Virus record (IMG/VR): IMGVR_UViG_3300037847_002334
Location: 2,274-26,596 of that record
Source: a virus
Reading direction: 5' to 3' (one strand)
Length of the DNA stretch: 24,323 nucleotides
Shown: piece after piece, positions 1 through 4,447 of the stretch
How the letters are laid out: every line of letters begins with the position of its first letter
Numbering within the stretch: the first letter of the stretch is position 1
Position numbers and translations under genes: made by a program
Notes under the pieces: generated by a model
What the model saw: only the letters and a program-made list of their open reading frames with translations
Told to the model about the DNA's origin: nothing
Databases searched by the model: none

Positions 1-31
1 AGGATTTACAGAGCTCAATACTCATATCCTA

Positions 32-178
32 TTTGTGTGGGCTGTTGGAGTATCACGATGACCTTTAAATGGTAAGACTCCCCTTTAACAGAATACAAAT
101 GGGAACCTTTCATAGTCAGGCTTTATATCGTGGAAGGCTCAGTAACAGCTAATTTCACCTTCACCCCTCGCACACAAA
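32..178 (-). ncRNA. Candidate structured RNA (no recognised family)
   Basis: This stretch follows the stop of the 65-aa gene and holds no convincing ORF. Read on the minus strand it has nested complementary segments. An 8-bp stem pairs 178-171 (TTTGTGTG) with 39-32 (CACACAAA). A 6-bp stem pairs 149-144 (GCTGTT) with 46-41 (AACAGC). A further 6-bp stem pairs 132-127 (CACGAT) with 59-54 (ATCGTG). Inside these is a hairpin, 105-97 with 86-79, with one bulged A. Alternative pairings (GGGGUG 167-162 with UACUCC 52-47; GAGCCUU 140-134 with AAGGUUC 109-103) rely on G-U pairs that only work on the minus strand, the direction of transcription here. The GC level looks higher than in neighbouring sequence. 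Six-base complements arise by chance at this length, so the nesting is suggestive only. A 32-codon minus-strand ORF (111 down to about 16, starting MKGSHLYS) lacks a ribosome binding site but cannot be excluded. Confidence 0.35.
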
Positions 179-180
179 AC

Positions 181-528: not shown

Positions 529-879
529 TTACGAAAAGCGATTTATGGTATTTTTCACAGGTTTTTTAAACTGTGCTATAGCTCTACCGTCATGTAGTCT
601 TTGTACTGATCTGCTTGCTGCTGCGAATAGACGTATTTGTTGTATATACTTTGCTTCATTTTCTTCAGCTATTCTCAATATCTCTGGATCAATACTATAT
701 TCATCATAAGAACACGCATATTCGTTTATTTTATTTTCGTATTCTGGAACAGCTTTTTTAGATTTAGGACGTTTTACAGCTTTATTTTTACACTCGTCAC
801 TACAATAAACAACTCGACCTTCACCTCTGGGGATTTCTACATAACAAACATTACAATATCTGATACCGTCAATAATCAT
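529..879 (-). CDS. Cys-rich zinc-finger-like protein (116 aa)
   Basis: The protein has unknown function. Near the N-terminus it has CNVC followed about 13 residues later by CSDEC, a CxxC...CxxxC cluster typical of small zinc fingers; the spacing recalls MYM/FCS- or HNH-associated fingers. The rest is helical and rich in charged residues, with a basic C-terminal tail. The frame opens 10 codons further upstream at 909, but that ATG lies inside the terminator hairpin at 896-926 and has no ribosome binding site. I therefore place the start at the internal ATG at 877-879, preceded by TGGAATT, which is only a weak site. Expression may depend on read-through of the terminator. The gene ends three bases before promoter copy A. 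Confidence 0.65.
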   Translation of the reverse strand: MIIDGIRYCNVCYVEIPRGEGRVVYCSDECKNKAVKRPKSKKAVPEYENKINEYACSYDEYSIDPEILRIAEENEAKYIQQIRLFAAASRSVQRLHDGRAIAQFKKPVKNTINRFS

Positions 880-895
880 AATTCCATTGTATAAC

Positions 896-926
896 AAAAA
901 AAGCCCCATCGTAAGACAGGGCTTTT
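896..926 (-). terminator. Intrinsic terminator of the small RNA
   Basis: The 8-bp perfect stem AAAAGCCC/GGGCTTTT (926-919 with 906-899) has a 12-nt loop and is followed on the minus strand by seven consecutive T (902-896). This is the clearest Rho-independent terminator in the window. It would end transcription from the promoter at 964-991 and from genes upstream. Confidence 0.8.
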
Positions 927-957
927 ACATCTATTCAAGGAGGATACGATAGATTGT
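896..957 (-). ncRNA. Candidate small RNA with anti-Shine-Dalgarno loop
   Basis: A near-consensus sigma70 promoter (964-991) and a strong terminator (896-926) bracket about 60 nt with no usable ORF. From a start near 957 the RNA first forms a 6-bp hairpin, ATCTAT (954-949) with ATAGAT (934-929). Its 14-nt loop displays UCCUCCUU (944-937). The CCUCCUU part is identical to the anti-SD end of bacterial 16S rRNA. The second hairpin is the terminator. Its loop has UACGAU, complementary to AUCGUA in the first hairpin, so a kissing or pseudoknot contact is possible. Known alphaproteobacterial sRNAs of the 'cuckoo' type also expose CCUCC-rich loops, which is a precedent and not a demonstrated relation. 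Complementary sites in this window include the ribosome binding sites of the 65-aa gene (9 nt) and the 190-aa gene starting at 14708 (9 nt). Confidence 0.6.
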
Positions 958-963
958 TTATTA

Positions 964-991
964 ATCATACCTAAAACAACAAAATTGTCAA
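964..991 (-). promoter_or_regulatory. Strong sigma70 promoter for the small RNA
   Basis: On the minus strand TTGACA (991-986), a 16-bp spacer and TATGAT (969-964) give a 6/6 match at -35 and 5/6 at -10. The -35 overlaps the stop codon of the 124-aa gene. It differs from the GCTTTACTTT elements, which suggests direct recognition by unmodified host RNA polymerase. Confidence 0.75.
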
Positions 992-1362
992 CCTTCTTTT
1001 ATTATGGCTTCTACCATATCTTTTATAGGTGTATCAGCGTTTACCTCAAGCTTATCTCTTAGGATAACTTTATCGACGCTTATAAATACTTCAGGATCAA
1101 CAACTTCATTATCATCGATCTTTCTGTAGCGTTTACCGTCTACGTAAACTGATTTAACTTTAGTCAGAGCTTGTACTAAGGTCGTAACCATATCTACGTT
1201 TTTAGAGTCAGCAGGTAAAATATATTCGCCATGCAATCGTATAGTCATCGTTGGACCAAGCTTCTGAATATCATAATCAGATAATTTTGGTGCTCTAGTT
1301 TCGAGATCTTTACCATGATTATCAAACATAGTAGGATCGTAATCATCAGGATAAGTTACCAT
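988..1362 (-). CDS. Hypothetical protein (124 aa)
   Basis: I do not recognise this protein. It is acidic and soluble, with no Cys cluster, signal peptide or membrane segment. The N-terminus is rich in Asp, Tyr and Pro. The middle contains a predicted beta-rich stretch (TMTIRLHGEYILP, then SVYVDGKRYRKI), and the end is an amphipathic helix. The start is firmly placed: AGAAAGGAG lies 6 nt before the ATG, matching the other operon-head genes. It is the only gene between promoter copy B (1400-1430) and the small-RNA promoter, whose -35 overlaps its stop codon, so it is probably transcribed alone or with read-through into the small RNA. Confidence 0.7.
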   Translation of the reverse strand: MVTYPDDYDPTMFDNHGKDLETRAPKLSDYDIQKLGPTMTIRLHGEYILPADSKNVDMVTTLVQALTKVKSVYVDGKRYRKIDDNEVVDPEVFISVDKVILRDKLEVNADTPIKDMVEAIIKEG

Positions 1363-3735: not shown

Positions 3736-4131
3736 TTAATAATCTATTATTAAATTTAAAATAGCAAGCCAGTCTTCTGATGAATATTTTGGAGTAATTT
3801 CTAGTAAACACTCCGATGATGATAATCCTTGTTCTAATAAAGTTCTAAATTGGTTAGAGTCATATAACCTTATCCATTTATTTTGATGATGTTGGATTAA
3901 TGTAAAAACTCTACCACCAGAGGCAACTCTTTTAAAAGCCCAATTACATTGAAAATTAGAAAACTTTATTTTGTTACCTCTAGCAATTTTTAATTCTAAC
4001 CAAAACTCATATCCTTCATAACAACCATTGACATCTGGTGTTCCTTGGGTCATAGGTGATTCTATCCTTTGCCAATGTACTTGTGGTAGATTGGTTCTAA
4101 GTGATTGATATAAGGTTGTTTCTTTAGGCAT
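3736..4131 (-). CDS. PD-(D/E)XK endonuclease, VRR-NUC/resolvase-like (131 aa)
   Basis: The motif GTPDVNG (Asp33) followed by FWLELK (Glu46, Lys48) is the catalytic signature of PD-(D/E)XK nucleases. The 'QRIESPMTQGTPDVNGC' lead-in resembles small phage VRR-NUC or Holliday-junction-resolvase-like enzymes. Such enzymes cut branched or double-stranded DNA with Mg2+; in T7-like phages the equivalent (endonuclease I) resolves branches before packaging and breaks down host DNA. The length suits a stand-alone nuclease. The start overlaps the upstream HTH gene by 8 nt and has no clear ribosome binding site, so translation is probably coupled. It is the last gene of the long replication operon. Whether it cuts junctions or duplex DNA cannot be decided from sequence. 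Confidence 0.8.
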   Translation of the reverse strand: MPKETTLYQSLRTNLPQVHWQRIESPMTQGTPDVNGCYEGYEFWLELKIARGNKIKFSNFQCNWAFKRVASGGRVFTLIQHHQNKWIRLYDSNQFRTLLEQGLSSSECLLEITPKYSSEDWLAILNLIIDY

Positions 4132-4447
4132 AGGTCGAATAATTTTTGTTATTCTCTGCTACTTTTACACCTTTATCTTGTAACCATTCTTTAAATAACT
4201 TTTGTTTTTCTGACTCAGACTTGGTTAATGATTTTAAATAAGATCTAAACTCTCTAGCTAGTTTTCTACCTTCATAATAATCACCACCACCTATCTTACA
4301 ACAACAAATAATTTGATGAACTCTTTGTTTTGTAATATTAAATTGTCTACCAATCTCTTCGTAAGTCATACCATGCTCACTTAGTTTTACCATAAGTGGA
4401 TATTGGTGTGCTTTAAGTTTTCTTACTTCTTCGTCTATTCCTTGCAT
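4124..4447 (-). CDS. Sigma-70 region 4-like HTH protein (107 aa)
   Basis: Residues about 24-47 (HGMTYEEIGRQFNITKQRVHQII) form a helix-turn-helix of the sigma-70 region 4 type: 'T..EIG...N.T..RVHQI' is the pattern that reads -35 elements. The rest is charged and helical. It is too short to be a full sigma factor and is better viewed as a DNA-binding regulator. The start has AAGGAG 7-8 nt upstream. It lies between the 39-aa small gene (35-nt overlap) and the nuclease gene. Since the repeated GCTTTACTTT element covers the -35 position of several promoters, this protein is one of two local candidates for a factor acting there; this is inference. Confidence 0.75.
   Translation of the reverse strand: MQGIDEEVRKLKAHQYPLMVKLSEHGMTYEEIGRQFNITKQRVHQIICCCKIGGGDYYEGRKLAREFRSYLKSLTKSESEKQKLFKEWLQDKGVKVAENNKNYSTYA

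Follow-up and report, generated by a model that had tools for sequence, protein, structure and literature searches.

Why would a phage place a near-consensus sigma70 promoter directly before a strong intrinsic terminator, with no open reading frame between them and with a complement of ribosome binding sites displayed in the intervening RNA? The window analyzed here, a stretch of 24,323 nucleotides, is part of IMG/VR record G000 (26,596 bases) from an uncultured phage, and the arrangement lies on its minus strand, between a 124-aa gene and a 117-aa zinc-finger-like gene (Table 1). The evidence assembled below supports the interpretation of this unit as a free-standing phage small RNA gene with an exposed anti-Shine-Dalgarno (anti-SD) loop.

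Table 1. Coordinates of the small RNA unit and its flanking genes in the window.
Feature	Position	Strand	Description
sigma70-type promoter	964..991	-	TTGACA-16-TATGAT; 11/12 consensus bases
-35 box	991-986	-	TTGACA, then 16-bp spacer
-10 box	969-964	-	TATGAT
Predicted small RNA	896..957	-	~62 nt; conserved in L002, L005 and G001/L019
Hairpin 1	929..954	-	6-bp stem and 14-nt loop
Hairpin 1 arms	954-949/934-929	-	AUCUAU/AUAGAU
Hairpin 1 loop	948-935	-	CGUAUCCUCCUUGA, 14 nt
Anti-SD nonamer in loop	938..946	-	UAUCCUCCU; 9/9 identical across both lineages
Hairpin 2 (intrinsic terminator)	899..926	-	12 bp, 5 G-C, then 7-T run
Upstream 124-aa gene	988..1362	-
Downstream 117-aa zinc-finger-like gene	529..882	-	126 aa from an upstream start

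Of the 18 promoter-like sites found within the first 6 kb of the window, this promoter ranks highest, and its -35 box contains the stop codon of the 124-aa gene. The predicted start of the small RNA follows from the position of the -10 box, and its end should lie within the T run. The loop of hairpin 1 includes UAUCCUCCUU, the complement of ribosome binding sites (CCUCC), which is unpaired at 96–100% in the predicted ensemble. An earlier sequence-only reading had described this succession of promoter, 6-bp hairpin and terminator without an intervening ORF, and the coordinates bear it out: G000 and the related 58-kb contig G001 each have a single locus at which a promoter of at least 11/12 lies 15–70 nt ahead of a strong terminator, against 0 of 300 genomes shuffled by first-order resampling, which preserves dinucleotide composition only on average. 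The MFE of positions 958-893 is -19.8 kcal/mol (z -4.8), a signal that comes mostly from the terminator, hairpin 1 alone being not unusual (z about -1.4).

Two lineages of related phages carry the unit at the same locus. Contig L002 is a 99.7% copy of the window lineage, and the second lineage, consisting of L005 and G001/L019, is about 75% identical to the window over the element and about 74–85% over most aligned stretches. The case that the earlier reading had named as speaking against a functional RNA was a relative that keeps the terminator and loses CCUCC; in the second lineage, promoter, loop and terminator are all kept together. The promoter, spacer included, is nearly identical in G001, against ~55–75% identity in the flanking coding DNA, and the 5-bp core of the hairpin 1 stem (UCUAU/AUAGA) is unchanged, as is the loop nonamer. 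In the G001 terminator three stem pairs differ, each on one side only, with pairing retained in all. The lineages have diverged on either side of the unit, upstream in the last part of the 124-aa gene and downstream in the bases past the terminator. The proposed identity of the loop with the CCUCCUU of the 16S rRNA tail is correct for the window; it is not conserved, G001 having CCUCCUC, so that the invariant part is UAUCCUCCU. Covariation cannot support hairpin 1, since there are just two lineages with an identical hairpin 1, and no double change is found between the two distinct sequences. In the more distant relatives G002 and G003, the locus between the homologous flanking genes contains neither TTGACA nor a hairpin-terminator unit, which makes the unit a recent or variable feature of this phage group, for which isolated phages provide distant relatives only. 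Taken together, we consider it very probable that the unit is real and conserved, and probable that it yields a discrete RNA.

The wider distribution of such units was explored by scanning three patterns and then filtering the matches for a terminator. Protein probes located the 124-aa product at one locus, the 117-aa product at three and the DUF932 neighbor at 42. With a promoter-plus-loop pattern, which matched 81 contigs, Lactobacillus phage LfeInf alone survived besides the known lineages. There were at least 126 hairpin-like TATCCTCCT sites with a -10 box, some of them entered more than once through overlapping loci; among the matches listed, a terminator within 80 nt was present only in these lineages and LfeInf, and all the terminator-bearing sites had a perfect TTGACA even though the pattern omitted the -35 box. 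A hairpin-plus-GGCTTTT pattern, with hits in 71 bacterial and 19 viral contigs, added a few new terminator sites, none of them with a promoter-like sequence above 8/12. Several candidates were rejected: the two extra matches to a loop-plus-terminator pattern (L049, L050) as an SD sequence read backwards and coding sequence, L058 for a merely weak terminator, and L120, by inspection, for a CCUCC that is folded away. A search of model R1 over 24 phage records gave strong matches in G000 and G001 only and a weak one at the LfeInf unit, and a blastn search with the unit as query found nothing beyond short chance matches in isolate phages.

The LfeInf unit (L089 1910-2020) follows an endolysin gene, between two genes, and comprises a TTGACA-TATAAT promoter, a 5-bp hairpin predicted to expose CCUCCUUCAA in its loop, and an 11-bp terminator, which together would specify an RNA of ~75 nt (L089 ~1940-2015). 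It belongs to another phage group with another host, and its promoter spacer and terminator differ from those of the window unit; as we saw no homology in the sequence beyond the motif, the resemblance is probably convergent. Other isolate phages matched this locus just in the neighboring endolysin gene, and LfeInf is a single example from the pattern scans. To our knowledge, no small RNA gene has been described at this site. That unrelated phages, namely the two window-group lineages and LfeInf, independently arrived at minimal double-hairpin RNAs under sigma70 control, which would rival the 16S tail for Shine-Dalgarno sites and serve as a general tool for resetting host translation during infection, is a generalization to which we give a low probability. 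Unlike the uncultured window phage, LfeInf is an isolated phage, with Lactobacillus fermentum as its host, and so permits a direct test.

The sequence-only reading went further and proposed that the RNA divides the phage's own genes into sensitive and less sensitive classes. The sites it cited are real: the 65-aa gene of the window has the ribosome binding site AGGAGGATA and the 190-aa gene AAGGAGGAT, to which we add a site absent from that reading, AGGAGGAT ahead of the 248-aa gene. The 65-aa gene, however, does not hold up as a perfect target, its site being AGGAGAAAAAATT in G001, which nevertheless keeps the RNA, and AGGAGGATATT in G003/G004. For the 190-aa and 248-aa genes, GGAGG sites recur at the orthologs in G001 and likewise in G002 and G003, and AAAGGAGAA leaders are common to the relatives, including those without the RNA at this locus. 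The GGAGG/GGAGA split is thus also present in G002 and G003, which lack the RNA at this locus, and was discarded as evidence of function. With sites shared with these two relatives and the 65-aa site lost in G001, no phage target tracks the RNA, and we regard the proposed sensitivity classes as very improbable.

The 65-aa gene is followed by another non-coding stretch, which occupies window positions 1-180 (minus strand), continues to ~1980 of G000, and corresponds to L019 9720-10200. It is about 95–99% identical between genomes that are otherwise about 75–85% identical, has no Rfam match and a fold z of only -1.4, and is a candidate for a large RNA, an origin or a packaging element. Intergenic stretches of a similar kind lie nearby in G002 and G003, with no clear alignment to it. 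Adjoining the left end of the window, at G000 ~2190-2273, the record contains a short run of N and a duplicated piece of the end of the 65-aa gene, apparently a scaffolding fault, which makes the left edge of the window unreliable.

How might the RNA act? The best explanation, to which we assign a slightly better than even chance, is that a phage-encoded ~62-nt double-hairpin small RNA occludes GGAGG ribosome binding sites in trans. Host sigma70 RNA polymerase would transcribe it from its own promoter, the transcript would end at the strong intrinsic terminator, and hairpin 1, in the predicted fold that is conserved in two lineages, would present UAUCCUCCU single-stranded. Judging by its complementarity and by known double-hairpin RNAs, the loop could then pair in trans with AGGAGG-type SD sites and block binding of the 30S subunit. 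In simple duplex calculations that ignore loop strain and concentrations, the loop outpairs the 16S tail at GGAGG sites of the phage (-11.8 to -14.2 vs -10.2 to -11.7 kcal/mol), and at the common AAAGGAGAA leader the two loops reach -10.0 and -7.5 vs -8.7 kcal/mol for the tail; the RNA could thus plausibly compete with ribosomes at GGAGG sites. Repression would be strong for AAGGAGGATA and AGGAGGACTT leaders and weak for AAAGGAGAATA, and we would guess that host messages with GGAGG sites are the likeliest targets. The unit has the own promoter, intrinsic terminator and ORF-free interval of a trans-acting anti-SD RNA, as well as the exposed, conserved SD complement; targets conserved together with the RNA were not found among the phage genes compared. 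Action through SD pairing in trans, a step argued by analogy, appears to us evenly poised.

The promoter offers a further indication. Other leader regions of these phages are marked by a recurrent motif, (A)AT(G/C)GCTTTACTTT (GCTTTAC), found on the minus strand at window positions ~530, ~1434, ~2350, ~3720 and ~15110, and in G001 too, mostly followed within about 50–75 bases by an AAAGGAG-type SD sequence. This motif probably acts as a phage promoter of another kind than the plain sigma70 promoter of the small RNA, a difference that suggests transcription of the latter by unmodified host polymerase. A 107-aa protein encoded at 4124-4447 (minus strand) matches sigma70 region 4 (PF04545, E 4.8e-06) and possibly reads the GCTTTAC motif.

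Not every feature of the locus demands a trans-acting RNA. The terminator ends about 16 nt ahead of the zinc-finger-like gene, for which we found only a weak SD sequence and no promoter of its own between terminator and gene, so that its transcription has to run past the terminator; the homologous gene of G002, which lacks the unit at this locus, sits in a tightly packed stretch. The unit might therefore be an attenuator, that is, a leader and terminator limiting expression of this gene, the RNA being a by-product whose loop might respond to ribosomes or to some protein. An in-frame ATG for the gene lies at 909, inside the terminator, and is not conserved. The mutually exclusive antiterminator of a genuine attenuator was sought and rejected, the forced alternatives (-7.6 and -5.4 vs -19.8 and -16.1 kcal/mol) being weaker by 10 kcal/mol or more; moreover, the leader contains no conserved ORF, no conserved downstream sequence pairs well with CCUCC, and LfeInf has the same layout ahead of an unrelated gene. 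We consider attenuation unlikely, if the least unlikely of the alternatives.

A more prosaic possibility is that the unit marks an operon border, at which the terminator of the upstream operon adjoins a spare promoter and the CCUCC loop is a coincidence or the relic of an SD sequence on the other strand. The dense packing of the phage genes and the ordinary stability of hairpin 1 are compatible with this, and the plus strand indeed reads AAGGAGGATA here, an SD form common in these phages. A plus-strand gene using that site was rejected for want of an ORF: no ATG follows it, just a short non-conserved frame. A promoter immediately before the terminator makes little sense at such a border, and the loop and stem core are unchanged although the sequence just past the terminator has diverged, all of which leaves this explanation quite improbable. 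Slightly less credit still goes to a sponge or decoy, in which the loop would bind not mRNA sites but a small host RNA rich in G, or some other RNA resembling an SD sequence. Phage-encoded sponges are known (AsxR and AgvB, mentioned in PMC12559287), and the invariant UAUCCUCCU reaches beyond the 16S-like core; on the other hand, the loop is an exact match to the SD core, and naming a partner would require the host.

Occlusion of SD sites in trans also finds its nearest parallel among described RNAs. Among Rfam families of this layout, RF02278 (Betaproteobacteria toxic sRNA) comes nearest; its 'double-hairpin RNAs' include ncS03, ncS05, ncS27 and ncS62 of Burkholderia cenocepacia (PMC5688073), to which S17 of Bordetella pertussis is related by sequence (PMC11722255). 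Family and window unit alike are about 60 nt long and form two hairpins, the first with UCCUCCU in its loop and the second serving as terminator, and the alignment and folds place the unit within the ~57–67-nt double-hairpin layout, spanning positions 8-63 of the 64 in the RF02278 model, loop on loop. No Rfam family matches the unit at gathering thresholds; the RF02278 scores, 18.6 bits for the window and 17.0 bits for L019, fall far below the 50-bit cut-off, the E-value of 0.0036 applies to G000 alone, and sub-threshold matches at E up to 1 occur in 11 of 14 control bacterial genomes. Since other families equal or surpass these scores over the same stretch of the window (MicC 27.4, Phe leader 26.3 and RsaE 22.2 bits, all below their cut-offs), the resemblance rests on layout, not on score. 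We therefore compare the unit to RF02278 in plan, without filing it as a member, and a shared mode of action would be by analogy.

The RF02278 RNAs were reported from betaproteobacterial genomes, of which those of Burkholderia have three to five copies each, whereas the window unit is phage-encoded, A+T-rich and single-copy. The family was named for its toxicity in E. coli (PMC4603805). The B. cenocepacia RNAs are 57–67 nt long, or processed to that length, and have CU-rich regions complementary to ribosome binding sites; overexpression of ncS27 slowed growth, and expressing an RNA reverse-complementary to its CU-rich end had the opposite effect (PMC5688073). S17 represses mRNAs at or near the ribosome binding site and showed no similar toxicity in E. 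coli BL21 (PMC11722255). In Caulobacter, the small RNAs SisA-D bear an anti-SD signature, through which they are believed to pair with many mRNAs (PMC12559287). Small RNAs of phage origin have likewise been reviewed (PMC12197685), and the passages of that review covered here describe no use of an anti-SD loop among them. If transcribed, the RNA of the window would represent a phage version of the double-hairpin anti-SD RNAs reported from bacteria, giving a phage a 60-nt, protein-free means to bias translation.
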